A DNA stretch of 64,000 nucleotides from Burkholderia sp. GAS332 (GTDB lineage Bacteria; Pseudomonadota; Gammaproteobacteria; Burkholderiales; Burkholderiaceae): contig FSRV01000001.1 in NCBI GenBank assembly GCA_900142905.1, positions 2,480,001 to 2,544,000 of the forward strand, read 5' to 3'. A program made the position numbers and the translations under genes. The number at the start of each line of letters is the position of its first letter. The first letter of the stretch is position 1. Under the pieces are notes generated by a model. The model had not been told where the DNA came from. It saw only the letters and a list, made by a program, of their open reading frames with translations, and did no database searches. Positions 425 to 18,328 of the stretch are shown one piece after another.

Positions 425-834
425 CAGATCCTCGCAAGCGAATCAGCAAGCTGAGCGGCCGGACCACGGAGGAAGAAAACGGCGCCTTCAGCAGGGAGTA
501 CCTGCCCGATTGGAGATTTATTCCCACTACCTGAGCTCGCCAGGCTTGCGAGGTCGCAGAATGTCTGCGGGCTTCCCGGTGTCGGAAGACCGTAGCCGGG
601 TGTTTGATTGGCTACAAGCCGCCAATGCAAAAAGCTGACGAGGCCACAATAGAAGAGGAACTGGTCTGAAAAATGGGGATATCCGCGGCGTAGCAGCGTG
701 GGGCGGCCTGACGGCGTGAACGATGGGCACCATCAGTGCAGGAACTCGCCCTCTACGTATCGAACGGACTCCGAATCGACACGATGTAGCAAGGTAGTTA
801 AGAATGTGCGCATCGAGACGCCAGGGGAGGAGAA
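425..834. other. Intergenic stretch
   Basis: Apart from the minus-strand promoter motif at 496-524, I see no gene here. Short open frames on both strands resemble nothing I recognise. Confidence 0.5.
496..524 (-). promoter_or_regulatory. ECF-type promoter motif (GGAATAA-N16-GTACTC)
   Basis: On the minus strand GGAATAA (518-524) and GTACTC (496-501) are exactly 16 bases apart. This is the spacing shared by the whole motif family in 1-18.3 kb. Transcription would start near 488, about 65 bases before the metallophosphoesterase ATG at 424. Confidence 0.7.
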
Positions 835-1735
835 GTTGTCACACATTCCCTATCCTCAATGGTTGCGGCCGGCGGATGTGCGATCGGTCCGGCTGACCAC
901 GGGACTGGTGGTGTTCACCTACGTGGGCACGTACTTCCAGAATCACTCGCTGGGGAATATCTCGCTCGCATGGATGGAGCGTGATCTGCTTGTGCAGAAA
1001 TCCATCTGACAGGGATGGCTTGGAACGGCCGTGCTGTACTGCGCGCTGGTGACGCATTTCTTCTTTGGTCTGTGGGCTCTGTGCGAACGACGCTCATTGC
1101 ACTGGACTCGAGGTGAAATGGCGCAACTCGTTCTGGCTTTGTGCATACCGCCGCTGCTAGCCAACCATCGCGTGAATACGCGGGTTGCCTTTGCCGAGTT
1201 CGGCCTGAACGAGGGTTACTCGCAGTTGCTGTAGTCGTTCTGGATCTATTCACCGTTCGTCGGCCGTGTGCAACTGATGCTGTTGGTCGTCACCATGGCT
1301 GCATGGGTGTTACGGCATCTGGTTCTGGTTGCGATTTAAACCTTGGTACGGAGCGTGGCGGAGTGTGCTGCTGAGCGCAGCGGTCTGCCTGGCTTCTTGC
1401 AGGGCGGACGGGAAGTGAGAGCGCTGGCGCAAGATCCTGTCTGGCGCACCGCGGCGACCCAGCGGACGGATATCGGAACGGGATTGCAAAATCATTGGCT
1501 CGCCGAGCTGCGCAACGAGCGGTGCGCTGCTGCTGGTGCTCGCCGCACGGCTGGTCTGCGCGACGCGGGAGCGCCGGATCGGACGGCCCTGCGTCCGGTA
1601 TCCGGGCGAGCGAAAAGTATTCGCGCGGCTTGGGTTTTCGGTGCTTGAGGCCAGCCGCATGGTCGGCGTGCCGCTTGCCAGCAGCTGCGGTGGACGCACC
1701 CGATGCACGTTGTGTCGGGTACGACTCGGAGCCGC
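835..1735 (+). pseudogene. Wrecked adenylate cyclase with membrane and 2Fe-2S domains
   Basis: Read across frames, this stretch gives a multi-helix membrane domain: RLTTGLVVFTYVGTYFQNHS, then LYCALVTHFFFGLWALCERR and CIPPLLANHRVNTRVA. A ferredoxin-like segment follows (FSVLEASRMVGVPLASSCGG, then RTRCTLCRVR) with a plant-type 2Fe-2S cysteine pattern. This order is known from a class of proteobacterial adenylate/guanylate cyclases whose C-terminal catalytic domain follows the ferredoxin. Here there are in-frame stops (TGA near 1007, TAG near 1232 and TAA near 1338), frame changes, and no catalytic domain. The gene is cut off where an IS5 transposase tail begins. The family assignment is from recognition; the inactivation is visible in the sequence. 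Confidence 0.75.
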
Positions 1736-1974
1736 ATCGTCAGAGGCTTCGCGAGCGCGGCATCAAACCGGTGATTGCCAGGCGCCGCATAGAACACGGC
1801 AGCGGACGGGGCAAATTCCGCTGGGTGGTTGAGAGTACTCACGCATGGCTCCACAACTTTCGTCGTCTTCGCATTCGCTTTGAGCGTCGGGCTGATATTC
1901 ACGAAGCATTCCTCAAACTCGGTTGCTCGCTCGTCTGCTGGAACATCTTCAGACGCACGGAGCAGTCTTTTTGA
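1717..1974 (+). mobile_element. IS5-family transposase C-terminal remnant
   Basis: Starting at GYDSEPHRQRLRERGIKPVI and continuing through FRWVVESTHAWLHNFRRLRI to the stop, this is the C-terminal third of an IS5-family DDE transposase, including the conserved catalytic-Glu region (WVVESTHAWL). The N-terminal part and both inverted repeats are missing. It is joined to the ferredoxin part of the cyclase pseudogene at about 1715, so insertion followed by deletion probably truncated that gene. Confidence 0.8.
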
Positions 1975-2205
1975 AATGGTCTCTTGGGGACTTGCCTTAT
2001 GCTGCAAGCGCGTCGGTGTTGCAGGCTTTCGCGCTATGGCCCAGGTTCCAGGGCAGGCGAAGATGGCACGGCGACGCGGTTGCAATGCAGCAAGCCATTC
2101 GGCGCGGGAGCACCGATGCGTCGGCAAGATCCGTCTCGTCGCCGCCACCTGCGGATGCTAAAGTCCTTGCAGCCGCCGGCTTTCAACGAAAAGAAAGGGA
2201 CCGTC

Positions 2206-2709
2206 ATGCCAAACAGAACCTCCTTGCTCCAGCGCGCGGCAGCCGCCGCTGCTTTCTTTGTGCTGATCGCGAACCATGTGGCCCGCGCCGAAGATAGCGT
2301 CGCGCTGGTTCATCCGGCCGCTCGCGATATTGCCCAGGAAGAGCGCAACCGCGCGCTAGTCGTGAACTTCTACGATGCGGTGTTCAACCGGCACGATCTC
2401 AGCACTGCTAGCATCGTGCTCGCACCGAATTACATTCAGCACAATCCGCATGTGCGCACCGGGTCCGCGCCGTTCATCAGCTTCTTTACCGAATACTTCA
2501 AGCATGCCCCCGATGCCCGTTCGGCCATCGTGCGCAGTGCGACCGACGGCGATCTCGTCTTTCTGCATGTTCACTCGACCAGCAACCCGCAAGACCGCGG
2601 CAACGCCATCGTAGATATCTTCCGCGTCGAGCACGGCAAGATCGCCGAGCACTGGGATGTGATTCAACCCGTGCCCGAGCAGTCGGCCAACGACAACACG
2701 ATGTTCTAG
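2206..2709 (+). CDS. Secreted SnoaL/NTF2-like protein
   Basis: 167 residues. The N-terminus is a Sec-type signal peptide (basic start, hydrophobic core AAAAAFFVLIANHVARA) ending near residue 28. The mature part has the SnoaL-like pattern: a helix with VVNFYDAVFNRHDL, then YIQHNPHVRTG and a C-terminal IVDIFRVEHGKIAEHWDVIQ. Such NTF2-fold proteins are small cone-shaped barrels; many are enzymes or ligand binders, and nothing here fixes the role. The ATG at 2206 follows GAAAAGAAAGGGACCGTC, a plausible but distant ribosome site. A strong hairpin lies 17 bases after the stop. No ECF motif was found upstream. Confidence 0.8.
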   Translation: MPNRTSLLQRAAAAAAFFVLIANHVARAEDSVALVHPAARDIAQEERNRALVVNFYDAVFNRHDLSTASIVLAPNYIQHNPHVRTGSAPFISFFTEYFKHAPDARSAIVRSATDGDLVFLHVHSTSNPQDRGNAIVDIFRVEHGKIAEHWDVIQPVPEQSANDNTMF

Positions 2710-2726
2710 TCGATCCGGCGAAACAC

Positions 2727-2762
2727 GCTGTCTGGCGCGGGTCTCTCCTCGCGCCAGACAGC
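2727..2762 (+). terminator. 13-bp perfect hairpin after the SnoaL-like gene
   Basis: GCTGTCTGGCGCG (2727-2739) and its exact reverse complement (2750-2762) flank a 10-base loop. No long T run follows, so it may act as an intrinsic-like terminator or as a 3'-end stabiliser. Confidence 0.6.
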
Positions 2763-3870
2763 GCGCCGCGGTTTAGTCGAGGCTGCCGAACACCGCTGTC
2801 AATCGAACTAAAGATGCAACCCCCTTCGGTGGCCGAAAGCCACACCAATCAACGAACGACCCCGCCGAGGGTTGCAAGTTTCCGTCAACTTGTTGATGTT
2901 CGTTAATTATGCTAGTCATGTCGGGAGTGGATAAAAAGCGGGGGAGGGCGCTTTCTGTTTTGAGCGAACTCCGGCGATCGGAAGTGCCGGAACCGCTTGG
3001 CGAAGCAAGTCTCCAGTCTCCCGTCGAGCAGTTCGACCCGTGTTTGCAACAAGTAATGGGCGCCCTTCATTGACCACCTCATTTGTTGACGTTTTTTGAG
3101 CCGGCGATTTATCAAACGATTCATGACCGATTTGGCCGACGCCGCCGATACTCGACGGCGCGGCCATGCGAGCCCGTTGATAGTCGATTAGGTGGTAGCG
3201 ATTATTCGCGAGGAAGGTCACCAATCGAGCGGCTGCGCTAGACGCAGTACCTGCGCATAGATTATAGAATTTTGGCATAGATCCGATTTCAAGATTCAGC
3301 GAAGCGATGAGCGTGCGTAGGATCTCGATTGCCACGTCACCCCGGCCACGCCCTAGCTTGTCGCGCACGCGATTCACTGGTCGCTCGCAGCGCTGCATCA
3401 CCGTGGGTCCGCAACCGCACGCCGGGTGAGCAGGACAGGGAGGCTGAGTCCGGCCCAGAGGCGGATCCATTCGGCGAGCGGAAGAGTCCAAATGGTTACG
3501 CCGCTCATAGACCTTACGTATAGCCAGCGCAAAATTCGGGCCGGCGGAGCCATACAGAAGGACCGTGCAGCGCGCGGCGAGATTCAGCGACCAGATGCCG
3601 AGCGCGTTATTCTCCAGATGGAGGGAAAGATAGGTCAGCGGCACTCCACCCGACGCCAGTTGCAAATGACGCAGAATTGATTGTACTTCGGTTCCCCTTG
3701 ATCTCACTGTTGCACTTGAAGCGACGCACCTTCATTCCCGCCATTCGACCGTCTGTCCAACAGGAAGCCGCATCCGGACCGGTTCGGATCTGATCAGGAA
3801 ACTCGCAAAAACTCGGGCAAGTTGCACAGGCGCGCCCGAAATCGCGGCATGCCGCCACGTTCGAGGCTCG
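2763..3870. other. 1.1 kb without a recognisable gene
   Basis: The longest open frame (2916-3707, minus) has no recognisable motif, no ribosome site and an arginine/proline-rich composition typical of chance frames in G+C-rich DNA. I see no repeat or IS end. It may be old decayed sequence. Confidence 0.4.
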
Positions 3871-3899
3871 GGAATAAAGCGGATGCTGGCGTGGTTAGC
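3871..3899 (+). promoter_or_regulatory. ECF-type promoter motif (GGAATAA-N16-GTTAGC)
   Basis: GGAATAA at 3871-3877 and GTTAGC at 3894-3899 with the family's 16-base spacer. Predicted start near 3906, about 85 bases before the small gene at 3990. Confidence 0.65.
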
Positions 3900-3989
3900 T
3901 CAGTGTACGCAGCACGATCGACAGATCGCAGCGTTCCGCTACCGACAGCTGATCGTCGTGAGCTGCGGCAGAAATGGAAGGAGGCGAAC

Positions 3990-4238
3990 ATGAACATCGC
4001 CGAGAAGTCTCTGCGGTTCCTGGTAGAAAAATGGCTTGCGCCGACTCCGACGACGCGGCTCCGCGTAATCCAATTCGGCCGTACCGGTTGCGAGAGGAGA
4101 CGCTATGTGCGCGTCGAGGCCTTGACCCCAAGCGGTTCGCATGCGATTTTCTTCTTTCGGCACGATGACGGCTGCTGGTGTGTATTCCCGCCTGCGATTG
4201 CACGGCCGGCATTGACGGGTCGTCGGTCTGCAGCGTAG
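3990..4238 (+). CDS. Small hypothetical protein (82 aa) behind an ECF-type motif
   Basis: I do not recognise this family. The ATG at 3990 has an excellent ribosome site (AAGGAGGCGAAC), which is why the longer upstream frame is not used. There is no signal peptide or membrane segment. The middle is rich in aromatic residues and ends in FFFRHDDGCWCVFPP, which holds two cysteines in a CWC motif. The promoter motif at 3871-3899 places it in the putative sigma regulon and, with the ribosome site, argues that it is a real gene. Most of its neighbours to the right are relics. Confidence 0.6.
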   Translation: MNIAEKSLRFLVEKWLAPTPTTRLRVIQFGRTGCERRRYVRVEALTPSGSHAIFFFRHDDGCWCVFPPAIARPALTGRRSAA

Positions 4239-4379
4239 AGGAGCGCCATACGGGTAAAAGGAGCATCAAATAAAAACGGAAACCACCGCTTTCCTGAGCA
4301 ACCAGGAAATCTCTGGCGGTGCCCCCATGCGCCCGTCGCAGCAGGGCAGAGCCGGTCTTTTACAACTGGGGGGCCGTGC

Positions 4380-4533
4380 CTACCGTGGTTACGCCGGCGT
4401 GCGGCCGGCGCACTCGCTTCGTTCGTCGAAACGCGATGCGTCACCAATTGCAGCGGCGTGCAGGCGACAAAAATTGTAGCCGCGAGAAGGGCGACACCAG
4501 CAGCCCACGCACGCGTAGCGAAGGATATCTTGA
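4380..4533 (-). pseudogene. YceI-like lipoprotein relic (N-terminal piece)
   Basis: The minus-strand frame reads AAGVALLAATIFVACTPLQL, then VTHRVS. This matches the lipoprotein signal and first mature residues of the intact YceI-like protein at 12780-13520 (LAIAASCTPLQVVTHTVS). The similarity stops after about 50 residues and no in-frame start remains. It lies just downstream of the metallophosphoesterase relic on the same strand, so the two probably formed part of a duplicated regulon block. Confidence 0.6.
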
Positions 4534-5195: not shown

Positions 5196-5220
5196 CATCC
5201 ACTTTCTTCAGTTCGAAGCT

Positions 5221-5249
5221 GGAATAAATTTCGAGCGACTTCGGTATAG
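5221..5249 (+). promoter_or_regulatory. ECF-type promoter motif (GGAATAA-N16-GTATAG)
   Basis: GGAATAA (5221-5227) and GTATAG (5244-5249) at 16-base spacing, about 100 bases before the sigma-factor relic. It mirrors the motif in front of the intact sigma gene at 18329. Confidence 0.65.
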
Positions 5250-5356: not shown

Positions 5357-6232
5357 ATGCTCGAGAGCAGGTCCACCCGCAAAGAGAGCCCAGCAGCCCC
5401 GTCGCATATCGAGGCAGCATCCGACCTCGCGCGCCGGCGGACGCGGAGCGTCAGGGATGCCGAAGATGTGGTCCAGGAGGCCTATCTGCGTGCAGTCCGT
5501 TCCTTCGACGGCTTCCATCGCGACAATGCGCGTGGATGGGCGCTCGCGATTAGGCGCAACGCCTGGTTCACCGGATGGCAACGACGGCGCCAGATGGCCG
5601 ACGGCGCCCCCTGCGACGACGCCCTGCACGGTGAACAGCGGCTTCATGGGTGGCCAGATGATACAGGCAGCGACCCGCAGAACTTTTCCGTGCGTCGTGA
5701 CGGCATTCACTTGCCTCGCCAAATGCCCGGCGCCCAGTCCGTCGAACATCGGGAGTCCGTCGTACTGCTCGATCTCGAGGGTATGAGCGACCGCGAAAAC
5801 GCGACTGTCATTGACGCCGGTCGGCCCGATCAACTCGCGGCTCTCGCGGGATCGGGCGCTGGTTTTTGTAGCTGTCCGAGTAGTACAGGCGGCATCGCCG
5901 CACAGACCAGGCGAAGAATTCTCCGACCGTTCGGTCGTCTCGGGCAGAGCATATCCGGCGCTTCAATCCGCTCCATCAGAATCCGTCCGGGGCGAGAACG
6001 AATCTTCCTTCTCGCTCGCAGCACTCGGCAACCAGATCAATCCGCACGCCACCCAGAGCGGTTACATCGACGACCTTCAGCTCATGATGTGGATGACACA
6101 CCTAGTCGCCCTCCTACTCGTCATTCGGGCACCGCTACGAAGTACGGTCGGCGAAGCGGTGCAGGCGGTAACGGATTGATTCACCCTATAGAACTCGGGG
6201 TCGGGGCAATCATTGGGAATTACCATGTCTGA
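5357..6232 (+). pseudogene. Degenerate ECF sigma factor (second copy)
   Basis: The frame stays open for 291 codons, but only residues ~30-165 resemble a sigma factor. DAEDVVQEAYLRAVRSFDGF followed by RDNARGWALAIRRNAW matches region 2 of the intact sigma at 18329 (DAQDVVQEAYLRAFRFFGGF, RGDDARAWLLSIVRNSF). SVEHRESVVLLDLEGMSDRE matches the start of region 4. The recognition-helix segment (GTVMSRLGRGRQ in the intact protein) is missing and the text jumps straight to DQLAALAGS. The linker is unrelated and the C-terminal 120 residues look like noise. It cannot bind DNA as a normal sigma4, so I call it a relic. A tail-less regulator is a remote alternative. Confidence 0.7.
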
Positions 6233-6906: not shown

Positions 6907-7749
6907 AGTACAAATTGGTTCGAGCCGCAATCGGCGACTGCGCACGGGCCGTAACCACCGATCGTCGCGGTGATAGCGAGTGCTATTTCCCAGCGAGAGG
7001 GCGTGCGTCGCTACCGGCCCCGGCGTCCTTACGGGCTTTGCGCACCGTCGTTTATTGCATTGAAAACGGGTGGCCACCGATTTCGGCGCCCTCGAGTTGC
7101 TAATCGGGAATAAAACAGACTTTGTCGTGGTTTAACCGGTACACGCCGGACGCTCGACGAGGATCATGGAGATCCATGCAACGTGCGATGGGACATTCAA
7201 AAAGGGAAACGCGCCGTATTGTATTGTGGAGTGCTAGGTAAACTGTGAATTGCTGCATGATCAGGCGGGCAAGCTCGCGGACCTGGTTGGTGTGTTCATG
7301 CTCGATGACGTGAGGGCACAGGTCTCGACTAAACGGCCAGGTGCCGCGCATGGGGGGACCTTTGCCGTGCAGGAGGCCAGGATGGTCCGCACTACCGCGC
7401 GCATGATGGTCGAGCATACAGATGCGGGCCGCGATTTGCAGTGGAAGCGGTATTAGCCACGGGAACGTAATGAACTATTGTTGAACCAATTCGACAATGA
7501 CTCGCTAGCTGATACCGGGCAGCCCGTCAAATGTTTTAGTATGTAGTGTCAAGATGGCATTGTTATGCACGGACGCCCCTCCTTGCCAGGCTTTCATGTT
7601 GCGACGTTTCGAAGGCCGTGATTGCAGCCATGCATCATGGATTTCAGTGCCCGGAGCAATCTGTCAGGGTACTTGGGTTGGTCTTGTGCATTGTTGTGGC
7701 TTCCTTTTGGAACTGGCTTTATAAACACCGGCCCAGCAGGATGACCAAG
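6907..7749. other. 840 bases with an orphan ECF-type motif, no secure gene
   Basis: The only confident element is the promoter motif at 7107-7135. Downstream a frame at 7250-7456 ends in RTTARMMVEHTDAGRDLQ, faintly like the MVxDHTKAN motif of DUF4142 proteins. It starts without a ribosome site, so it may be a relic. A 23-codon frame at about 7170 is also possible. Confidence 0.35.
7107..7135 (+). promoter_or_regulatory. ECF-type promoter motif (GGAATAA-N16-GTTTAA)
   Basis: GGAATAA (7107-7113) and GTTTAA (7130-7135), 16 bases apart. It is one of the better matches, but no convincing gene follows within 400 bases. It may serve a small RNA, a very short peptide, or a decayed gene. Confidence 0.55.
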
Positions 7750-8140
7750 AGGGCGAGATGGGGCAAAGGCGGTGTAGCGTTCATGGCATTGGTCCCAACA
7801 AGTAAGAACACGCTTGAACTTGTTGAGCCATGCGAACAGACGCTCGATCTTCATTGGCGCCGGTATCGACGCAGCGCGCGACCATCCTGCAGTGGTTCCA
7901 GCGGTGCGGGGAGATCTGTTCGACGCCTCCCTGCGCAAGCTTTTCATCGAGTGGATCACTGTCATCGGCAAGATCCCCAATAATTCGTCCGGGTTCTCCC
8001 GGCGTGGCGTTGTCATCGAGCGTAGCTTTGGCAAGGGTGACTTCATGTGGGCTGACAGAAGACGTGTTCGCGGCGAGTGAAAGACCATGAGCATCTGAAA
8101 AAACCATGAGCTTCGTACTCTTGCTCTTCTGCAAGTTTTT
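7750..8140 (-). mobile_element. IS5-family transposase remnant, frameshifted
   Basis: In one minus-strand frame (about 8131-7892) I read KSTKLMVFSDAHGLSLAANT, then PGRIIGDLADDSDPLDEKLA and GVEQISPHR. This is the typical central part of an IS5-family transposase (second catalytic Asp region). A different frame continues with IERLFAWLNKFKRVLTCWDQ (about 7848-7759), the C-terminal Glu-containing region. A frameshift therefore separates them, and the N-terminus is missing. It is distinct from the IS5 remnant at 1717. Confidence 0.75.
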
Positions 8141-8236: not shown

Positions 8237-8617
8237 TCAGGAGCCGAAAAAAATATCGCAGAAGCTGACAGGTCTGACGCAGGTAGACGGAACTGCGGGA
8301 GCCGTCTTTTGTTTGATGTGGCCGGCATCACTCGTGCCTTTCGTTTCGGTGCCCATGCCACTGTCGCTGTTTTGTCGCTGGGATGTGGCGGCTTGCTGTT
8401 CAGCGTTCTGGGCGGCTACCTTCGCCTCCGCGGCCTGGATATCGGTAGGATAGGTCGCGTCATCGTTGGCCGACGGATTGTATCCAGCCTGTTGGAGCCT
8501 GATGAGGTCGGCGCGTACCTGCGCTCTGGTGAGCGGGACGGACGCGGACTGCGCAAAAGTCGATGTGGAGCTGACGACCGCACTGAGCGTCAGTGCCAGC
8601 AGGGCGAGCTTTTTCAT
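8237..8617 (-). CDS. Secreted DUF4148 protein with CVxPVSxC C-terminal tail
   Basis: 126 residues from ATG 8617 (ribosome site AAGGAGTCAAGATC). It has a Sec signal peptide (MKKLALLALTLSAVVSSTST, cleavage after FAQ), then the DUF4148 core LTRAQVRADLIRLQQAGYNP...YPTDIQAAEAKVAAQ. The extra C-terminal extension is shared with the neighbour at 8685: SDSGMG, TSDAGHIK, and the terminal CVRPVSFCDIFFGS. The tail has two cysteines four residues apart and ends exactly in Gly-Ser. DUF4148 proteins are small periplasmic proteins of Burkholderiaceae without a known function. It lies 67 bases downstream of its paralogue on the same strand, so the pair probably arose by tandem duplication and is cotranscribed from the ECF-type motif at 9268. 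Confidence 0.85.
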   Translation of the reverse strand: MKKLALLALTLSAVVSSTSTFAQSASVPLTRAQVRADLIRLQQAGYNPSANDDATYPTDIQAAEAKVAAQNAEQQAATSQRQNSDSGMGTETKGTSDAGHIKQKTAPAVPSTCVRPVSFCDIFFGS

Positions 8618-8684: not shown

Positions 8685-9026
8685 TCAAGAGCCGGAATAA
8701 ATAGTGCAGAAGCTGACAGGTCCAACGCAGGCTGACGGACCTGAAGGAGGCGTCTCCCGTTTGATATGGCCGGCATCGCTTGTGCCTGTCGTTGCAACAC
8801 CCATCCCACTGTCGCTGGTTTGTTGCTTGAGCCGCGCGACCTGCTGTTCAAAGATCGGCGCAACGTCGGGGTACGACGTATCACTCGCAAAATTCAGTCC
8901 GTTGCGTTCGGCTTCAATCAACTCCTGCCGCACCTGCGCCCGGGTCTTTTCTTGAGCCTGCGCGTTAATCGAAATGCCCGATGCGGCGGCGAGAATCAGG
9001 GCAAAAATCATGGTTCGCTTATTCAC
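8685..9026 (-). CDS. Secreted DUF4148-like protein with CVxPVSxC tail
   Basis: 113 residues from the GTG at 9026, chosen because TTGGAGTTCAAA gives a good ribosome site and the product then starts with NKR plus a hydrophobic core like its relatives; the TTG at 9038 is less likely. The signal peptide ends near INAQA. The core KTRAQVRQELIEAERNGLNF...SYPDVAPIFEQQVARLKQQ resembles the protein at 17498 more than the one at 8237. The extension (SDSGMG, TSDAGHIK) and last residues CVGPVSFCTIYSGS are shared with 8237. So the same C-terminal tail sits on two different DUF4148 subtypes. The probable promoter at 9268-9296 would leave a leader of about 235 bases. Confidence 0.85.
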   Translation of the reverse strand: MNKRTMIFALILAAASGISINAQAQEKTRAQVRQELIEAERNGLNFASDTSYPDVAPIFEQQVARLKQQTSDSGMGVATTGTSDAGHIKRETPPSGPSACVGPVSFCTIYSGS

Positions 9027-9267: not shown

Positions 9268-9296
9268 GTATACCGGGAGCTGGCGCCGCTTATTCC
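9268..9296 (-). promoter_or_regulatory. ECF-type promoter motif (GGAATAA-N16-GTATAC)
   Basis: Minus-strand GGAATAA (9290-9296) and GTATAC (9268-9273) with 16 bases between. It would transcribe the two tail-bearing DUF4148 genes after a long leader that shows no gene of its own. Confidence 0.6.
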
Positions 9297-9431: not shown

Positions 9432-9460
9432 GGAATAAACAGGCCGACTCTCCGGTATTT
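9432..9460 (+). promoter_or_regulatory. ECF-type promoter motif (GGAATAA-N16-GTATTT)
   Basis: GGAATAA (9432-9438) and GTATTT (9455-9460) at 16-base spacing. Downstream is a frame at 9495-9887 with a fair ribosome site (CTGGAGGACCCGCCG) but an unfamiliar, low-complexity product that overlaps the 3' end of the opposite cytochrome b561 gene. I do not trust that frame, so this is a second orphan motif. Confidence 0.5.
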
Positions 9461-9791: not shown

Positions 9792-10331
9792 TCAAATTCC
9801 CATGCGTCCAGCAACGCCGTCGCGCTCGATGAACTTGTGTTTCAACGCGGCGGCGATATGCGCAATCAGCAAGAGCGCGAGCGTTAGCACCAACCCGCGG
9901 TGCAGCGTGTCAGTCAGCAAACGCAAAGGTTCGTCCCGGTCGATGAAGACCGGCATATCCGCCAAACCAAAAAAACTTACCGGATGTGCGCCCGCCAGTC
10001 GGTGCACGTAACCGGCAAGCGGCACTAGGAACAGCAGTACGTACAGCGTTCCGTGCAACACGCTCGCAGAATACGCTTGCCACCTCGGGATGCTGGGCGG
10101 GAGTGCCGGCGGTGTACGCATAAGGCGCCACAGTAGGCGCGGCGCCATCAGCATGAAGATCAAGCTGCCGATCGATGCGTGATAGAACAAGATGCCGTTG
10201 AAGCGCGGTGAGTTATGCGGGAATGTATCGATATAGAGTCCGATCGACAGGTTCAACAGGATCAAGAACGCGATGGACCAGTGCATGATGATGGCAAAGC
10301 GTGTGTAAGTGTCATTGTTGGCGCGGGACAT
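9792..10331 (-). CDS. Cytochrome b561 family membrane protein
   Basis: About 179 residues with four transmembrane helices: IIMHWSIAFLILLNLSIGLY, FYHASIGSLIFMLMAPRLLW, SVLHGTLYVLLFLVPLAGYV and HRGLVLTLALLLIAHIAAAL. Histidines at the helix ends (MHW, YHAS, LHGT, LHRG, IAH) are the expected haem b ligands. This class of diheme quinol-linked b561 proteins handles superoxide or passes electrons to periplasmic partners. A YceI-like protein, a common companion of b561 genes, is encoded nearby at 12780. The start could be ATG 10331 or GTG 10343; neither has a strong ribosome site. The ECF-type motif at 10418-10446 lies about 90 bases upstream. Confidence 0.85.
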   Translation of the reverse strand: MSRANNDTYTRFAIIMHWSIAFLILLNLSIGLYIDTFPHNSPRFNGILFYHASIGSLIFMLMAPRLLWRLMRTPPALPPSIPRWQAYSASVLHGTLYVLLFLVPLAGYVHRLAGAHPVSFFGLADMPVFIDRDEPLRLLTDTLHRGLVLTLALLLIAHIAAALKHKFIERDGVAGRMGI

Positions 10332-10417
10332 GAGAGATTTCACTTTTTAAAATAATGTGACGGGCGGACCTCGCTTGCCAGATCGATCGGCAATGCAAAC
10401 TGCGTGGTTGCAAACCG

Positions 10418-10446
10418 AAAAACCATCTCAAAGCCGGATTTATTCC
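10418..10446 (-). promoter_or_regulatory. ECF-type promoter motif (GGAATAA-N16-GTTTTT)
   Basis: Minus-strand GGAATAA (10440-10446) and GTTTTT (10418-10423), 16 bases apart, directly upstream of cytochrome b561. A weaker copy with the same spacing (GGAATAG...GTTGTG, 10553-10581) lies further upstream on the same strand. Confidence 0.6.
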
Positions 10447-10610
10447 CGTCGCTCGCATCAAAGTGGTTGAGCCGCCTCTGAATGCAGCGGCGCGCTCCCG
10501 GCACGAGTACACACCCCCGAACAGGCAATTCTTGCGATTATGCTGACCGGAGCACAACCGCAAGTACGCGCGCTCTATTCCCGGTCGGTTGCCAACACGC
10601 TAGTCCTTCG

Positions 10611-10639
10611 GGAATAACCTCACTCGAGTTGCGGTATGG
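10611..10639 (+). promoter_or_regulatory. ECF-type promoter motif (GGAATAA-N16-GTATGG)
   Basis: GGAATAA (10611-10617) and GTATGG (10634-10639), spacing 16. Predicted start about 50 bases before the ATG at 10695. Confidence 0.6.
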
Positions 10640-10694: not shown

Positions 10695-11204
10695 ATGAGA
10701 CGTATCTATTTGCTATTGCCGAATGTGCACAGTGCACAGATGACTATCAACGAACTTCTGTTATTGCGGGTCGAGTGGCGACATATCCACGTGATCGCCA
10801 ATCACAATGTGCCGCTCGAGGATTTGCCAGAAGCAACGCTGGCGCAACGCAGCGATCTGTTGCCCGCCCTCGCGAGAGGGGTGGCGATGGGCGGCCTCAC
10901 GGGGACGCTGGCCGGACTGGTCGCACTGGCGTTCCCGCCGGCCGGCCTGACGATTGCAGGCGGCGCGGTCGTGGCAATCACGCTCTGTGGCGCCGGCTTT
11001 GGTGCATGGACAGCGACGATGATTGGCGTCGATGTACCGAATACGCGGCTCAAGCGCTTTGAACAGGCTATAGAAAAAGGCGAACTGCTGATGATGGTCG
11101 ACGTCGCGAAAGATCGCGTCGAAGAAATCGAGGAGGTGATCAAGCTGCGTCACGCCGAGGCCGACATTCAGGGAACGGACCCGACAATTCCGGCGTTTCC
11201 GTGA
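10695..11204 (+). CDS. DUF1269-like membrane protein
   Basis: 169 residues; the ATG follows GAGAAGGAC. The N-terminus (RRIYLLLPNVHSAQMTINEL, then WRHIHVIANHNVPLEDLPEA) folds like a small alpha/beta regulatory unit. Next come two glycine-rich membrane segments (ALARGVAMGGLTGTLAGLVA and GLTIAGGAVVAITLCGAGFG) and a C-terminal soluble helix with RFEQAIEKGELLMMVDVAKD, RVEEIEEVI. This layout is typical of DUF1269/glycine-zipper stress proteins that sense or permeabilise membranes; no biochemical role is established. It is monocistronic and lies behind an ECF-type motif. A GC-rich hairpin follows at 11293-11322. Confidence 0.75.
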   Translation: MRRIYLLLPNVHSAQMTINELLLLRVEWRHIHVIANHNVPLEDLPEATLAQRSDLLPALARGVAMGGLTGTLAGLVALAFPPAGLTIAGGAVVAITLCGAGFGAWTATMIGVDVPNTRLKRFEQAIEKGELLMMVDVAKDRVEEIEEVIKLRHAEADIQGTDPTIPAFP

Positions 11205-11450: not shown

Positions 11451-11767
11451 GTGAAACCGAATTCGCTGAATCGACGTGTCGTGCTATCCATACCTGATTC
11501 GCTTATTGTGAACGCTGCGCTGTTGGCAGCATCGAACTGTGTACGCGCAAACGTCGTTGGAATTCGGGACAATTCACATAACGCGTTCAGAGGTTACTTA
11601 CGAGCTCGAAAAGCCGAAGTGAGCCGGATATAGCGCCTTCTCCAGGTGCCGATCCGTACCACCCCCGACATTCAGGCGGGCAACAGCGGGTCGAAGCCAA
11701 ACTTCAAGCGGAATAGAATGCGCTAATGGCCGGTAACGACGCGGCGCAGACCCGATCCATGCCTTGA
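11451..11767 (+). pseudogene. Frameshifted DUF4148 gene
   Basis: It begins GTG AAA CCG AAT TCG with a good ribosome site (AAGGAGTCGTGAC). The start KPNSLNRRV...SLIVNAALLAASNCVRAN parallels KLNSLNRLV...SLIVSAVLMATSACVYAQ of the intact gene at 13906. After the signal peptide the homology moves frames: HITRSEVTYELE in one, then GADPYHPRH, QQRVEAKLQAE and MAGNDAAQTR in another, matching HQFTRAEVRQELK, DIQAAEQRLAAKRQAE and LTGGNQMAQTK. Two or more frame changes and two in-frame stops make it non-functional. Confidence 0.8.
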
Positions 11768-11787: not shown

Positions 11788-12165
11788 ATGAAAAACTCCT
11801 TCCTGAACGGCTCAACTGCACGCGGCGTCGTCGCCGCGTTGAGTCTCGCGATCGCGCAACTGGCGAACGCCCATGCCTATCCAAAACTTCAGGTGCCGCC
11901 CCCTAGGGCTAGCATGTCTGTTTCGCCCAGGGAGGTGTCGATCGATTTCGATGACGGACTCGAAGCGGCATTTAGCGCGATCACGGTGACGGATGCACAG
12001 CGGAGGTCCGTGACGCTTGGTAAGTCGATGGTCGATTCGTCGAACCCTAAGCACATGTCGGTGCTGCTGAACCCGCTCACGCCCGGTGTGTATACGGTCA
12101 CGTGGGTTGCGGTCGCCGCCGACGGGCATCGTACGGAAGCCGAATATACCTTCACGGTCAAATAG
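11788..12165 (+). CDS. CopC-family periplasmic copper-binding protein
   Basis: 125 residues from ATG 11788. The Sec signal is MKNSFLNGST...LSLAIAQLANA; cleavage after NA puts His at mature residue 1, a CopC copper ligand. The CopC beta-barrel motifs follow: VSPREVSIDFDDGLEAAFSA, ITVTDAQRR, LNPLTPGVYTVTWVAVAADG and HRTEAEYTFTV, where the DGH near the C-terminus carries the second conserved copper ligand pair. It thus likely binds Cu(II) in the periplasm. It stands alone, without a CopD partner in the window. I found no ECF motif directly in front of it, and the ribosome site is weak. Confidence 0.8.
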   Translation: MKNSFLNGSTARGVVAALSLAIAQLANAHAYPKLQVPPPRASMSVSPREVSIDFDDGLEAAFSAITVTDAQRRSVTLGKSMVDSSNPKHMSVLLNPLTPGVYTVTWVAVAADGHRTEAEYTFTVK

Positions 12166-12779: not shown

Positions 12780-13520
12780 CTAGGCGAATGCGGCAAGCTG
12801 ATCCCGGACTGGGCCGTCTATCCCTCTCCTGAACGACACATCGGGCACGCCCATAGCGCGCCCGGGCGCCGCGGATTGCCGGACAAACTCCGCCTGAATC
12901 CGCACGTTTACGTCATCGCCTACGGCTGGGAACCACGTCGATAGTCCAAACCTCGCGCGGCTGAGATGGCCTTCCGCCGAGAAGCCGAGCGTGTCCTGTT
13001 TCGTCAGTGGATCGGGCGCGAAGCCGTTTAACGTCACGTCAAGCGTGACCGGTTGAGTGGTGCCGCGGATCGTCAGATCGCCGGTCAACGTACCGCGGGC
13101 GTCTCCTGTACGTTCGAAACGCGTGCTGACGAACCGGATCTGCGGGTAGCGCGCCACGTCGAACATATCAGCGCCCTTGACGAGCTTGTCGAGGAGCGGC
13201 ACGTTGGTATCCACGCTGGCGGCATCGATGGTCGCCGTGACTGAACTCCTGTCGAGCCCGCCTTCGTCCCAGTCGAGATTTGCGGTCGCGCGATCGAGGC
13301 GCATCGTGAAGCGCGAATACTTGAAGTGATCGACATCGAATGTAATGCTCCAGTGGTGCGGATCAAGGTCGTACTGACCTGGCGGCACTCGCGTTTCAGA
13401 CTGGCTGACGGTATGCGTGACCACTTGAAGTGGCGTGCATGAAGCGGCTATCGCGAGCACCGAAATCCACAACGCGCACGCGACAATCGCATGAACGGAA
13501 TGCTTCTTCACCGCTTTCAT
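12780..13520 (-). CDS. YceI-like lipoprotein
   Basis: About 246 residues from ATG 13520. This start is chosen because the promoter motif at 13620-13648 would start transcription near 13613, after the longer frame's first codon. The lipobox ISVLAIAASC predicts a lipid-anchored protein. The YceI lipocalin-like domain follows: YDLDPHHWSITFDVDHFKYS, ATIDAASVDTNVPLLDKLVK, ADMFDVARYPQIRFVSTRFE, GDLTIRGTTQPVTLDVTLNG and GFSAEGHLSRARFGLSTW. YceI proteins bind polyisoprenoids such as ubiquinone in the periplasm and often accompany cytochrome b561, present here at 9792. A relic of a second copy lies at 4380. Confidence 0.85.
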   Translation of the reverse strand: MKAVKKHSVHAIVACALWISVLAIAASCTPLQVVTHTVSQSETRVPPGQYDLDPHHWSITFDVDHFKYSRFTMRLDRATANLDWDEGGLDRSSVTATIDAASVDTNVPLLDKLVKGADMFDVARYPQIRFVSTRFERTGDARGTLTGDLTIRGTTQPVTLDVTLNGFAPDPLTKQDTLGFSAEGHLSRARFGLSTWFPAVGDDVNVRIQAEFVRQSAAPGRAMGVPDVSFRRGIDGPVRDQLAAFA

Positions 13521-13619
13521 CCCAGTGCTTAACCAGCGTAATCGAGAATCGCCAGAGAAAGGACGACCACTGCAAATTCCTAAATTGCAAACCTCAGACC
13601 GTTTTTCGATATGCAATGA

Positions 13620-13648
13620 GTAGACTCCGTTTCGTCGCCGGATATTCC
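13620..13648 (-). promoter_or_regulatory. ECF-type promoter motif (GGAATAT-N16-GTCTAC)
   Basis: Minus-strand GGAATAT (13642-13648) and GTCTAC (13620-13625). The spacer CCGGCGACGAAACGGA is nearly the same as that of the motif at 15225, and the GTCTAC hexamer is shared with 15225 and 17780. It drives the YceI-like lipoprotein. Confidence 0.75.
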
Positions 13649-13803: not shown

Positions 13804-13832
13804 GGAATAAGGATGACGGTTCAGTGGTTTAC
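13804..13832 (+). promoter_or_regulatory. ECF-type promoter motif (GGAATAA-N16-GTTTAC)
   Basis: GGAATAA (13804-13810) and GTTTAC (13827-13832), spacing 16, about 70 bases before the DUF4148 gene at 13906. Confidence 0.7.
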
Positions 13833-13905: not shown

Positions 13906-14223
13906 ATGAAATTGAATTCGCTTAATCGGCTTGTTGGTCAAGCCGCGCGTGGTTCGCTCATCGTGAGTGCGGTGCTGATGGCAACGTCAGCCTGTGTGTA
14001 CGCGCAAACGTCGGCGGAGCCCGGCACGCATCAGTTCACCCGTGCCGAAGTGCGGCAAGAACTCAAGGAGTTGGCGGCGGTCGGATATCGCCCTGTTCCC
14101 AATGATCTCTACTACCCCGAGGACATTCAGGCGGCAGAACAAAGGCTGGCGGCCAAACGTCAAGCGGAGCAGGATGCGCTTACGGGGGGGAACCAGATGG
14201 CGCAGACGAAGCCCACGCCGTGA
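13906..14223 (+). CDS. Secreted DUF4148 protein
   Basis: 105 residues from ATG 13906 (ribosome site CCAAGGAGTAGCAAC). The signal peptide KLNSLNRLV...IVSAVLMATSACVYAQ is followed by the DUF4148 core FTRAEVRQELKELAAVGYRP, YYPEDIQAAEQRLAAKRQAE, and a short tail ending QTKPTP. It lacks the CVxPVSxC tail. It is closest to the protein at 17038 (same QTKPTP end) and to the pseudogene at 11451. The function is unknown. The ECF-type motif upstream suggests stress induction. Confidence 0.85.
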   Translation: MKLNSLNRLVGQAARGSLIVSAVLMATSACVYAQTSAEPGTHQFTRAEVRQELKELAAVGYRPVPNDLYYPEDIQAAEQRLAAKRQAEQDALTGGNQMAQTKPTP

Positions 14224-14843: not shown

Positions 14844-15107
14844 TCAGGAGCCGAAGAACGGCTGGCAGTAGCTGACTGGACCTACGCATTCAGTGCTGCC
14901 GGCCTGGGGCAGGGACGTGCATCCCGCAGTCATCAGTCCCGCGAAGGCGGCGGGGAGCCAGACTGCGCGGCGGATGCGCGACGAAGCCTTCCTGCCTGCG
15001 GGCTGGCTGCGCAAACCTGGAATGCCGTTCGCCGCCTTGTTGTCGCGGGCTGCGCCAGCGCTGTACGCGCCGAGGACCGGGCTGTCGCGAAGATCAAACT
15101 GGTTCAT
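14844..15107 (-). CDS. Tiny lipoprotein ending in CVGPVSYC
   Basis: 87 residues from ATG 15107 (ribosome site AACAGGAGATGCGAAA). The first ~45 residues are polar and basic, then AVWLPAAFAGLMTAGC forms a hydrophobic segment with a lipobox (MTAGC). If cleaved there, the mature lipoprotein is only about 25 residues: the lipidated Cys, a short linker, and TECVGPVSYCQPFFGS. This end matches the last residues of the two DUF4148 proteins at 8237 and 8685. The long polar stretch before the hydrophobic segment is unusual for a lipoprotein signal; internal initiation or a membrane anchor are alternatives. It is expressed from the ECF-type motif at 15225-15253. I know no named family. Confidence 0.7.
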   Translation of the reverse strand: MNQFDLRDSPVLGAYSAGAARDNKAANGIPGLRSQPAGRKASSRIRRAVWLPAAFAGLMTAGCTSLPQAGSTECVGPVSYCQPFFGS

Positions 15108-15224
15108 TTTCGCATCTCCTGTTTTCAATTGGAGCGGGGGCGACCCTGCAGGTCTTTGCACTTTCAGGCGCGGCTTCGCATGGACGTGAGCATGTCTAAT
15201 CGACGTGCGCAATTGGTTAGCTAT

Positions 15225-15253
15225 GTAGACGCTGTTTCGTCGGTGGATATTCC
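15225..15253 (-). promoter_or_regulatory. ECF-type promoter motif (GGAATAT-N16-GTCTAC)
   Basis: Minus-strand GGAATAT (15247-15253), spacer CCACCGACGAAACAGC, GTCTAC (15225-15230). It lies 118 bases upstream of the tiny lipoprotein. Confidence 0.75.
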
Positions 15254-15465
15254 CGCACCTTCAATAAAGCGCATTTGGCCGACAGCCAAATCAGTTCGCC
15301 GTCGGCTCGTCAGCATCAGGCGGCGGATCGGTATTGGTCATCGATTCTGATCACGTCACGGTTACGTGCGTGGCAATGCGATTCTGGTGCGCGGCCACCG
15401 CAGCCAACCAGGGCGCCAATCGGTTGCGTCGACCCCACGACCACATTCGAAATGTGCAGCGGGCT

Positions 15466-15494
15466 GGAATAAAACGGATGATCCGGCGGTCTAT
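15466..15494 (+). promoter_or_regulatory. ECF-type promoter motif (GGAATAA-N16-GTCTAT)
   Basis: GGAATAA (15466-15472) and GTCTAT (15489-15494), close to the apparent consensus. It lies about 70 bases upstream of the metallophosphoesterase-cupredoxin pair. Confidence 0.75.
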
Positions 15495-15567
15495 GCATTG
15501 AAGCCAGTCCGGAGGCCCGTCGGATAGTCTGGCGTTCTACCTCCTGAACCTTAGTCGTGAGGACACT

Positions 15568-16512
15568 ATGTCGTCAGATCTTCCATTCGATCCGTCGCGC
15601 CGCGGCGCGTTGAAATGTCTTGCCTTCGGTGGCGTAGGCACCGTGTTTGTCCTGGCTGGCGGTATTCTCACGCCAGTGGAACTAGCCCTCGCCGCCACAG
15701 CGAAGGATTCGTCAGTTGCCTCGGGTGTTCCACTGTTCCTTCAGATCAGCGATTCTCATATAGGCTTTAACAAGGAAGCCAATCCGGATGTCGCCGGTAC
15801 GCTCAAGCAGACGATTGATTTTGTCAACGCCATGCCGGTCAAGCCGGCGCTGACGATTCACACAGGTGACATTACCCATCTCTCCAAACCGGCAGAGTTC
15901 GACCTCGCCGCCCAATTGCTGTCGGGCCTGAAAATCACCGAGTTGCATACCGTGCCAGGCGAGCACGATGTGACCGACGGCCCTGGCACCGAATATTTCA
16001 ACCGTTTCGGTCAAGCCTCGGACAACAAAGGCTATTACAGCTTCGACCACAATGGCGTGCACTTCATCGGACTCGTCAACGTCATGCATTTCAAGCCGAA
16101 CGGGTTGGGAGGCCTGGGCGACGACCAGCTCGCCTGGCTGGAAAATGATCTGAAGGGGCGCTCGTCCAGCACACCGATCGTCGTCTTTGCGCACATGCCG
16201 ATGTGGACTATTTACGAACCGTGGGGGTGGGGCACCGGCGATGCCGGCCAGGCGATGAGCTATCTGAAGCGCTTTGGTTCGGTCACCGTCCTGAACGGGC
16301 ATATCCATCAGATCGTGTCGAAGGTGGAGGGGAATATCACCTTCCATACAGCGCGCTCGACGGCGTATCCGCAACCGACGGCCGGCAATGGCCCCGGCCC
16401 CATGCCTCTGACGGTGGCGAGCGACCAGCTTCCGAAGATGCTTGGCGTGACCACCATCAAGATCGCGCGCCACCCGCTGAAGGCGACACTTACCGACACG
16501 ACACTCGTCTGA
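15568..16512 (+). CDS. Tat-exported calcineurin-like metallophosphoesterase
   Basis: 314 residues; the ATG follows GAGGACACT. The Tat signal is SRRGALK with a hydrophobic stretch to about residue 42. The catalytic fold shows LQISDSHIGFN (metal 1), HTGDITHLSK, VPGEHDVTDG (normally GNHD; Glu replaces Asn here), VFAHMPMW and LNGHIHQI, which complete the binuclear metal site. The Asn-to-Glu change in GNHD is shared with the left-edge paralogue, so it is a subfamily feature rather than damage. The substrate is unknown. The cupredoxin gene follows after 34 bases, and both probably form an operon under the motif at 15466. Confidence 0.9.
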   Translation: MSSDLPFDPSRRGALKCLAFGGVGTVFVLAGGILTPVELALAATAKDSSVASGVPLFLQISDSHIGFNKEANPDVAGTLKQTIDFVNAMPVKPALTIHTGDITHLSKPAEFDLAAQLLSGLKITELHTVPGEHDVTDGPGTEYFNRFGQASDNKGYYSFDHNGVHFIGLVNVMHFKPNGLGGLGDDQLAWLENDLKGRSSSTPIVVFAHMPMWTIYEPWGWGTGDAGQAMSYLKRFGSVTVLNGHIHQIVSKVEGNITFHTARSTAYPQPTAGNGPGPMPLTVASDQLPKMLGVTTIKIARHPLKATLTDTTLV

Positions 16513-16546
16513 TTCCAGACACCACTTACCCACAAGGATCCTAATC

Positions 16547-16894
16547 ATGCGAACCACTTTCTTTCGTCGCGCCTTCGTCGTCTCCTTCGGCGTCGGGATG
16601 CTGATGTGGGGAATCGCTTCCGATTTCGCCGTCGCGCAGGCGCAGGAGGCCAATGCCGTCGTGATAAAGAACTTCATGTTCTCGCCGATGTCGCTCACGG
16701 TCAAAGCTGGTTCGACCGTGACCTGGACAAATCTCGATGGCGAACCGCATGCGGTTGTCAACGATGCTGGCCTGTTCCACTCCGGCCCGCTCGATCAGAA
16801 CGACACCTTCCAGTTCAAGTTCGATAAACCCGGTGTCTACAAGGTATTCTGCGGTATTCACCCGTATATGAAAGCGACGATTACCGTCAATTAG
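16547..16894 (+). CDS. Periplasmic cupredoxin (plastocyanin/amicyanin-like)
   Basis: 115 residues with a Sec signal (RRAFVVSFGVGMLMWGIASD, cleavage near AQAQA). The mature protein has the cupredoxin barrel: VVIKNFMFSPMSLTVKAGST, VTWTNLDGEPHAVV (first copper His) and VFCGIHPYMKATITV, where Cys-x2-His-x2-Met supplies the remaining type 1 copper ligands. It probably carries electrons or copper in the periplasm, perhaps for cytochrome b561 or the metallophosphoesterase encoded just before it. This coupling is inferred from position only. Confidence 0.9.
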   Translation: MRTTFFRRAFVVSFGVGMLMWGIASDFAVAQAQEANAVVIKNFMFSPMSLTVKAGSTVTWTNLDGEPHAVVNDAGLFHSGPLDQNDTFQFKFDKPGVYKVFCGIHPYMKATITVN

Positions 16895-17037
16895 GTGCAC
16901 TGTCTCCCTGAGCGCATGCCGCCAGAGGTTGAGTAACTGTCCGGAAGGAGGCGCGAGGCGGGAACTCCGTGTCGCGCACTATCAATGCTGGTGCGCAGCA
17001 CGGATTATCACGTTCCGAACTGTGACGCTGCGCCGAC

Positions 17038-17358
17038 TCAAGGTGTCGGCTTCGTCTGCCCGGTCTGCCCCAGGCCCATCACTGCACTTCTTTCCGCTTG
17101 ATGTTTGGCGGCAACCTTTGCTTCTGCGGCCTGAATGTCGGCGGGGTAGTCCTCATCGTCGCCCTGAGCCGGGTTATACCCGGCCGCCTCCAGCTCTTCG
17201 AGTTCATGTCGCACTTCCGCGCGAGTGAGCTGATGTGCGGCAGGGGCAGACGAAGTTTGCGCATACACGCTGGCCGAAGTTGCCATCAGCACCGCGCCCA
17301 CGACAACCAGCGCGCGTAGTGGCTGGTCAACAGACTGATTCATCGAATCCGATTTCAT
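17038..17358 (-). CDS. Secreted DUF4148 protein
   Basis: 106 residues from ATG 17358 (ribosome site CAAGGAGCGCTATT); the longer frame has no support. The signal peptide KSDSMNQSVD...VVGAVLMATSASVYAQ is followed by LTRAEVRHELEELEAAGYNP, YPADIQAAEAKVAAKHQAE and the end QTKPTP. It is very similar to the protein at 13906. It is the second gene of a minus-strand pair behind 17498 (gap 139 bases), probably served by the ECF-type motif at 17780. Confidence 0.85.
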   Translation of the reverse strand: MKSDSMNQSVDQPLRALVVVGAVLMATSASVYAQTSSAPAAHQLTRAEVRHELEELEAAGYNPAQGDDEDYPADIQAAEAKVAAKHQAERSAVMGLGQTGQTKPTP

Positions 17359-17497
17359 AATAGCGCTCCTTGCTTCCTGGGATGCTGCGTCGCGCGAGGA
17401 TCGGCCTGGGCTGCACATGATGCGAGCGGTGGTGAGCGGACGGGACGCATGCGTGCCGTCATCCACTAGCGAAGTTCAGCCGGGACGAAACGCGGGT

Positions 17498-17743
17498 TCA
17501 ATTGGTAGTGCTGTCCGTAGTGGTTGCGCGCTGTTTCGCAAGATGCTCCTGCTTCGTGCGGGCGACCTGCGCCGCGAAAATCGGATTGACATCCGGGTAC
17601 GAGGTATCGGTGACATAGTTCAGACCGTTCTGCTGCGCTTCGATCAGTTCCTGATAGACCTCGGCGCGTGTCTTGCTCTGGGCAAATGCGCCCGATGACA
17701 TGAGAACGGACAGCGACATGGCGGCAATAGCGAGCTTCTTCAT
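17498..17743 (-). CDS. Small secreted DUF4148-like protein
   Basis: 81 residues from ATG 17743 (ribosome site TCAGGAGTCTGAA). The signal peptide KKLAIAAMSLSVLMSSGAFA precedes KTRAEVYQELIEAQQNGLNY, SYPDVNPIFAAQVARTKQEH. It matches the core of the protein at 8685 (KTRAQVRQELIEAERNGLNF) but lacks its C-terminal CVxPVSxC extension and ends in a Thr/Ser-rich tail. This comparison shows the extension is a separable module. The ECF-type motif is 37 bases upstream. Confidence 0.85.
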   Translation of the reverse strand: MKKLAIAAMSLSVLMSSGAFAQSKTRAEVYQELIEAQQNGLNYVTDTSYPDVNPIFAAQVARTKQEHLAKQRATTTDSTTN

Positions 17744-17779
17744 TTCAGACTCCTGATAATAGTGTGCGGTATGCAAAGA

Positions 17780-17808
17780 GTAGACGCCGCCTCGTCATCA
17801 GATATTCC
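17780..17808 (-). promoter_or_regulatory. ECF-type promoter motif (GGAATAT-N16-GTCTAC)
   Basis: Minus-strand GGAATAT (17802-17808) and GTCTAC (17780-17785), spacing 16. Predicted start near 17773, which rules out the longer reading frame from 17776. Confidence 0.75.
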
Positions 17809-18328
17809 CGAATATTCGATAAAAGCATTGGCCTGACTGTCCGCGTAAGCTTGAGATGGGCGACATATATCGGATGGCCGGTCGGGGTGATGTCGGCCGT
17901 CCACGGGGGGGCCGGTCCACGGGCATGGTTACGTTCGAGGGAGAGAGAGTGCGCCGTTGTGACCTTCAGCGCGGATACAATGACTCTGAAATCACTTATC
18001 CGTCTGCCCGGGCTCGAGGGCGTCGCCAGCCGGTATGGGGAGAATTAGAGGAGGGGCGTCGGATCGTGCACCGGACCGGGTAAGGGGAGGACTTGACTGG
18101 CGGCTCAAGCCGGAGATAATCCACAGCGACAGGCTTGGTTAGCTTGATGAATCTGCGTCAGCCGAGGCTTTTCCCCAGGATTACTCCGCACGCGCATATC
18201 AATCACATGACCTCCACGAGCTACGCCAGAGTAATACGGAGCGATTTTGACCGGCGCGGAATAAAAACGACGTGCTGACGGTCTTATAACTGTCGGTCAC
18301 GGATTGCGGTTACTGCAGGAATTTCACA
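17809..18328. other. Intergenic region upstream of the sigma gene
   Basis: 520 bases with one clear element, the motif at 18258-18286. No gene is recognisable between the two divergent units. Confidence 0.5.
18258..18286 (+). promoter_or_regulatory. ECF-type promoter motif of the sigma operon (GGAATAA-N16-GTCTTA)
   Basis: GGAATAA (18258-18264) and GTCTTA (18281-18286). It sits about 40 bases before the sigma-factor ATG, the arrangement expected of an autoregulated ECF factor. This is the main reason to assign the whole motif family to this sigma. Confidence 0.75.

Follow-up and report, generated by a model that had tools for sequence, protein, structure and literature searches.

A locally dense set of promoter-like sites occupies the left end of a 64,000-nucleotide stretch of the Burkholderia sp. 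GAS332 genome (assembly GCA_900142905.1, contig FSRV01000001.1, positions 2,480,001 to 2,544,000; the whole stretch is called the window here). In this block, fourteen copies of GGAATA followed by 17 bases and GT are packed beside sigA, which encodes an extracytoplasmic function (ECF) sigma factor, and antiA, which encodes an anti-sigma factor. The explanation that best accounts for the whole, and which we consider likely, is that sigA, a sigma factor resembling group ECF26, has an expanded regulon concentrated locally in this block. The sigma class and its promoter are already known; the novelty lies in how densely the regulon is packed locally, in its having apparently grown out of a compact module and in its outlasting the sigma factor.

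The looser form of the pattern, GGAATAW-N16-GT, matched 15 times in the window, against 0.39 ± 0.68 in 100 shuffles, none of which gave 15, and 14 of these matches lie inside 497–18285. Named by their 5' ends, they are 3871, 5221, 7107, 9432, 10611, 13804, 15466 and 18258 on the plus strand and 524, 9296, 10446, 13648, 15253 and 17808 on the minus strand, and the GGAATA-N17-GT spacing is identical in 14/14. An earlier, sequence-only reading of this DNA had listed these same sites, giving the minus-strand ones by their low ends; all of them exist, and the fixed spacing it described was borne out, as was its statement that none stands before genes beyond the block, the sole match there (55635) sitting within open reading frame (ORF) 55597–56517. 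Its claim that sites stand close to start codons mostly holds, the distance from the -10 end to the assigned ATG being 35–118 bases for 12 of 13 sites and 257 for 9296, and site 18258 does stand before sigA (18329). When the strict ending, GGAATAW-N16-GTHTW, was required, 11 window sites were left, with three more in L001, the DNA left of the window. Weaker -10 ends were seen at 524, 3871 and 10611, and two weak extra sites, both GGAATAG, at 10581 (minus strand) and 11710 (plus strand).

Across the whole 10.4 Mb genome (G000; contigs C1 and C2) the strict pattern gave 23 matches, compared with two for the reversed pattern used as a control, and 14 of the 23 fall within C1:2475202–2498285, a span of 23.1 kb in which 0.05 would be expected (binomial tail 5.5e-32 under uniform placement), so the pattern is not equally common elsewhere. 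That it arises from chance or base composition is an explanation to which we give practically no credence: the motif is short, and each of the 77 genus genomes searched (own included) has at least one strict match, but the excess in the window, the clustering and the GC content of the block, which is similar to that of the rest of the window, all speak against it. A search of Rfam at the gathering score matched no RNA element.

The suggestion that almost an entire regulon is gathered here stands as far as the strong clustering goes, but not in its extent, since nine strict sites lie away from the cluster. Five of these nine end in CGTTTA and look like a separate class; with this class set aside, 14 of 18 strict genome sites are in the cluster. 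Among the remainder, C2:1530418 precedes another phosphoesterase–cupredoxin pair and C2:3251116 a DUF4148 gene, and C2:4239138 and C1:3319742 have no block gene nearby. GGAATA sites with a CGTTTA -10 were noticed at L002 9295–10975, L003 9127–10540 and L004 8618, in arrangements that are alike on two contigs (L and G codes other than L001 and G000 denote relatives' or further loci and relatives' genomes, respectively). The idea that the CGTTTA sites are targets of the ECF sigma factor at C1:3220015 was dropped, two L014 sites not being in an autoregulatory position.

The block sites are under selection. For a footprint analysis, 150 bases on either side of each site were compared by BLAST with 12 loci of relatives, without asking for the motif, and 53 site-spanning alignments were kept, 33 being dropped as non-spanning or shorter than 100 bp. 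The eight core positions (GGAATA and GT) were changed in 1 of 424 cases, the next two bases in 3/106 and the rest of the -10 in 10/159, whereas the 13-base spacer was changed in 78/689 and the flanks in 799/7318; these alignments are not independent, as they include several loci per genome and some paralogous copies, and the span requirement may favour kept sites, the window sites having themselves been picked as pattern matches. An insertion within the site occurred in 1/53 alignments, a paralogous pair, and in loci without sigA the core was again nearly unchanged (1/104). The comparison with relatives' loci argues for selection on the sites, the core having changed so much less than the spacer. 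It also makes it very improbable that the sites were simply carried along when gene cassettes duplicated and do little today, an idea suggested by the copying of paralogous genes and divergent site pairs inside the cluster and by targets that are broken or absent at 5221 and 7107 and doubtful at 9432; the low core change points to selection on the sites in their own right, and the regular site-to-gene spacing likewise tells against it.

The features of the block and the adjoining sigma operon are, from left to right:

1..424, minus strand: start of a second, shortened metallophosphoesterase copy, continuing left of the window; no Pfam match
497..524, minus strand: site before this copy, weak -10 end
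3871..3898, plus strand: site before an 82-residue ORF, weak -10 end
3990..4238, plus strand: 82-residue ORF, kept in G046, G019 and G050; no Pfam match
5221..5248, plus strand: site before the broken sigma gene sigB
5357..6232, plus strand: sigB, broken ECF sigma factor; PF04542 (region 2) only, region 4 unmatched
7107..7134, plus strand: site with no intact target assigned; in the G046 ortholog a DUF4148-like gene follows
8237..8614, minus strand: DUF4148 protein (PF13663)
8685..9011, minus strand: DUF4148 protein (PF13663) with tail CVGPVSFCTIYSGS
9269..9296, minus strand: site before the DUF4148 pair, gap 257 bp
9432..9459, plus strand: site divergent from 9296; doubtful target, an ORF without Pfam match
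9792..10343, minus strand: cytochrome b561 (PF01292)
10419..10446, minus strand: site before the cytochrome b561 gene
10611..10638, plus strand: site before a 169-residue protein
10695..11204, plus strand: 169-residue protein; no Pfam match
11710..11737, plus strand: weak site, GGAATAG with -10 GGTAAC, before the CopC gene
11788..12165, plus strand: CopC domain protein (PF04234)
12780..13520, minus strand: YceI-like protein (PF04264), found in the longer ORF 12780–13616
13621..13648, minus strand: site before the YceI gene, GGAATAT..GTCTA subtype
13804..13831, plus strand: site before a DUF4148 gene
13906..14223, plus strand: DUF4148 protein (PF13663)
14844..15107, minus strand: predicted lipoprotein of 87 residues ending CVGPVSYCQPFFGS; lipobox by eye, no Pfam match
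15226..15253, minus strand: site before the lipoprotein gene, GGAATAT..GTCTA subtype
15466..15493, plus strand: site before the metallophosphoesterase and cupredoxin genes
15568..16512, plus strand: metallophosphoesterase (PF00149) with a twin-arginine-like N-terminus (Tat reading by eye)
16547..16894, plus strand: cupredoxin (PF13473)
17038..17358, minus strand: DUF4148 protein (PF13663), same orientation as the next gene
17498..17743, minus strand: DUF4148 protein (PF13663)
17781..17808, minus strand: site before the two DUF4148 genes, GGAATAT..GTCTA subtype
18258..18285, plus strand: site before sigA, GGAATA-N17-GTCTT
18329..18868, plus strand: sigA, ECF sigma factor of 179 residues (PF08281, PF04542)
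18865..19653, plus strand: antiA, anti-sigma factor with zf-HC2 (PF13490), probable membrane segment and periplasmic domain, from model and fold matches

Paralogous genes inside the cluster are 33–67% identical, the second metallophosphoesterase copy matches that at 15568 at 64% over 167 residues, and divergent site pairs are present as copies. The extent given by the sequence-only reading needs revision: 497–18285 does hold 14 sites, but the cluster begins about 5 kb left of the window, its right edge being the sigma gene, and it seems to have decayed in part. To the eye, from their ORFs and letters, the stretches 858–1340, 2916–3707 and 7594–8094 (the last without a Pfam match) resemble remnants of genes, and erosion of the cluster on its left side is therefore probable. 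Further left, at about 171–7580 of L001, several long ORFs might together encode Tn7-like transposition functions, a guess from their translations.

A compact form of the locus is found in relatives. sigA occurs at 83% or more in 14 of the 77 genus genomes (own included), and in one further at 67%. Nine of the ten loci with sigA at 83–87% were fetched at 20 kb (G059 was left out), and in 9/9 one site stands ahead of sigA and a second ahead of a phosphoesterase gene that has a cupredoxin gene downstream; eight hold just this two-site module at the locus, and that of G025 adds a DUF4148 pair with its site and one more site. The ancestral module is therefore likely to have comprised sigma, anti-sigma, metallophosphoesterase and cupredoxin genes, with sites before the sigma and phosphoesterase genes. 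The expanded form was seen in Caballeronia records and in 4/77 genus genomes; in these four the strict sites in the fetched sigA regions make up 14/23 (G000), 14/27 (G046), 6/20 (G017) and 14/25 (G019) of the genome total, the G019 count spanning three contigs whose adjacency is not established. Beyond these, GGAATA-N17-GT sites number 11 in 20.5 kb of Caballeronia udeis LMG 27134 (L070), six in 10.8 kb of Caballeronia sp. SEWSISQ10-4 (L071) and five in Burkholderiaceae bacterium 16 (L072). The L070 locus and that of Paraburkholderia madseniana RP11 (L069, seemingly the same record as G017) are alike in having sigA at 94–96% with DUF4148, phosphoesterase and cupredoxin genes, but differ from the block in gene order and set of sites.

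The pairing of sigma, anti-sigma and metallophosphoesterase, often with cupredoxin, is widespread. A wider scan for the sigma factor retained the best 80 of at least 420 confirmed loci. Of these 80, 48 have a site in the 300 bp preceding the sigma match. A phosphoesterase was matched in 46 (E 1e-6, frequently at 33–39% identity), 33 of which carry a site no more than 400 bp ahead of it, and phosphoesterase and cupredoxin occur together in 24. The loci include records from Acidobacteria, Verrucomicrobia, Planctomycetes and Gemmatimonadetes, mostly metagenome-assembled genomes. In 10/10 alphaproteobacterial loci checked (46–49% identity) the 300 bp preceding the sigma match contain no GGAA-like site with GT at 14–20 bases, and the same check found no such site in L073 and L092. 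A search of the available papers for the module or its gene names found no description of it.

The identification of a sigma/anti-sigma pair made from the sequence alone was upheld. sigA is an ECF sigma factor by its regions 2 and 4 (PF04542, PF08281), with no other sigma-70 domain in its 179 residues, and its sequence matches in the PDB were SigH, RpoE and SigW. The antiA product, which carries zf-HC2, can be likened to the anti-sigma factors RsiW, RslA and MucA and to the sensors RseB/MucB: in the model the N-terminus lies near RsiW, MucA and RslA, the RsiW match being confined to this part, and the periplasmic domain near RseB and MucB, while a modelled helix at 99–119, of low pLDDT (model confidence), could be a membrane segment. 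For an ECF26 anti-sigma factor the periplasmic domain would be expected to resemble that of RsiW. In Sinorhizobium meliloti, the product of azu2 is a cupredoxin.

The available parts of PMC6180224 give the ECF26 promoter consensus as -35 GGAATA and -10 GT, which the motif of the block and of the sigA and sigC promoters matches (sigC being a paralogue of sigA), but the single match to sigA labelled S. meliloti in a plasmid collection is 31.9% identical and is not pinned to any described RpoE, so that ECF26 membership by sequence is not established. Described ECF26 members are RpoE1, RpoE3, RpoE4 and RpoE6 of S. meliloti, and azu2 is one target; the likenesses comprise the consensus, an anti-sigma gene downstream of the sigma gene and an anti-sigma factor that begins with an anti-sigma domain and has a periplasmic domain beyond a membrane segment (here a probable one), together with autoregulation (there of RpoE1, RpoE4 and RpoE6; predicted here) and cross-talk between paralogues, which here is a possibility (PMC6180224, PMC3511301). 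The systems differ in that RpoE1/RpoE4 targets are sulfite oxidation genes and in that the available text of these two papers describes no 14-site block for the S. meliloti ECF26 sigma factors (PMC6180224, PMC3511301). The RpoE4 regulon is estimated there at fewer than 10 genes (PMC10880074, available part), a further difference, and RpoE6 overexpression raised expression of 40 genes (PMC6180224, available part).

Considering which sigma factor reads the sites, those before sigA are mostly GGAATAAAA..(A/G)GTCT and begin 70–89 bp ahead of the sigA start in 22 of the 23 distinct loci examined, with none found in L073. sigC, 50% identical to sigA, lies at C1:3003129, about 0.5 Mb from the block, and has GGAATAAACT..GT upstream in 18/18 loci; sigB (5357–6232), which site 5221 precedes, shares 37% identity with sigA across 148 residues, and its reading diverges within region 4 from the better kept copy in G019 (L052). 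The block sites end in GTCT, in GTATA, in GTTTA/GTTTT or in weaker forms. Two matrices were built, one from sigA and phosphoesterase promoters, leaving out the loci of the four expanded genomes, and the other from sigC promoters, and on these 15466 and 18258 are clearly sigA-like and 9432 scores about equally. The GGAATAT sites 13648, 15253 and 17808 score too low on the sigA matrix to reach its listing threshold, and this matrix is thus unable to assign every site. GGAATAAA-N14-RGTCT was present in 14/14 genomes with sigA at 83% or more against 8/63 others (Fisher 3.8e-10; the reversed control gave six matches in 77 genomes), a test that is partly circular, and so only partly informative, because the pattern includes sigA's own promoter, and that ignores relatedness.

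Several observations weigh against giving the whole block to sigA. Its matrix scores highly only some block sites, and for 524, 3871, 5221 and 10611 the sigC matrix gives the better score; GGAATATYC-N14-GTCTA occurs in 5/14 sigA genomes against 8/63 others (p 0.053, not significant). Four of the eight sigA-less genomes with GGAATAAA-N14-RGTCT (G049, G050, G067 and G075) have the match before a phosphoesterase gene, and in sigA-less G029 it sits about 130 bp before sigC. G029, G050 and G069 carry cassettes but no sigA ortholog of this kind at E 1e-40, and the site of the distal phosphoesterase–cupredoxin locus persists in G049, G050 and G067, all without sigA. In G067 (L167 11780–12116) a deletion covering the greater part of sigA and antiA has joined the first 28 codons of sigA directly to the final third of antiA; the sigA promoter there has lost one of its eight core bases, the sole core change in the 53 alignments, and the core is kept at the four other aligned sites. 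Either these losses are recent or another sigma factor reads the sites. The distal pair (L006 8243–10849, at C2:1530418) was also seen to have, besides its own site, a divergent GGAATAG..GTCAT site before a membrane-protein-like ORF, and both recur in sigA-less G049, G050 and G067.

The block might alternatively be an island shared by several ECF26-like sigma factors, sigA acting on GTCT ends and sigC, and in the past sigB too, on GTATA/GTTTA ends, with the cluster a product of cassette duplication and not one regulon. We take this as a serious contender while leaning somewhat away from it: the upstream sites of sigC, the preference of four block sites for its matrix and the even scores of 9432, the GTATA-type cassettes kept by G050 and the persistence of phosphoesterase sites in sigA-less genomes all fit, and overlap and cross-activation among S. 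meliloti ECF26 paralogues have been published (PMC3511301, PMC10880074, available parts), but sigC is distant, and its own sites begin GGAATAAACT, as do 0/14 block sites. The earlier assignment of the block to its own sigma factor thus survives in part: the sites are selected, clustered and nearly always present before sigA, but exclusive control by sigA is unproven and not supported, given the site at broken sigB, the GGAATA sites before sigC and the sites kept in G029, G050, G067 and G069, which have no intact ortholog. Probably, the regulon in the block is composite and of ECF26-like type.

Under the preferred reading of an expanded sigA regulon, we infer the following mechanism and history. 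The antiA product would keep sigA bound at the membrane by means of the zinc-finger anti-sigma domain at its N-terminus, and its periplasmic domain would sense an envelope signal, possibly related to copper or oxidants, upon which sigA would be freed. Freed sigA may then start transcription at GGAATA-N17-GT promoters, its own operon included, giving positive feedback. The metallophosphoesterase–cupredoxin pair is the likely ancestral target, to which DUF4148 proteins, the small lipoprotein, YceI, cytochrome b561, CopC and others would have been added; sites ending in GTCT would be chiefly those of sigA, and those ending in GTATA/GTTTA may be shared with sigC or once have been read by sigB. The promoters are packed around the sigma gene apparently because the compact module expanded by local duplication, partly perhaps by copying promoter-plus-gene units beside the sigma gene. 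The series of loci, from two-site module through four-site form and 14-site cluster to sigma-deleted relict, would make the growth and decay of an ECF regulon readable, and it draws attention to the sigma/anti-sigma/metallophosphoesterase(/cupredoxin) pairing and to small exported proteins with a common C-terminal tail.

More speculatively, and with considerable doubt, a regulon might grow as a physical island whose promoter-plus-gene cassettes duplicate beside the sigma gene, so that expansion, movement and decay affect it as a whole and it outlasts its sigma factor; its added members might constitute a periplasmic system not recognised so far, the DUF4148 proteins and the tiny lipoprotein sharing the tail CVGPVSFCxxYFGS for metal binding, cross-linking or processing. 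The tail, as CVGPVSxCxxxxGS, is common to the 87-residue predicted lipoprotein (14844–15107) and the DUF4148 protein at 8685–9011, which are otherwise unlike, and the string was not found in the literature searched. It is present, with no more than two changes, in each of the 18 members found for the lipoprotein family (own included), and among the 120 DUF4148 homologs listed of 219 found, 109 match the tail pattern, 10 are close variants and one is without it.

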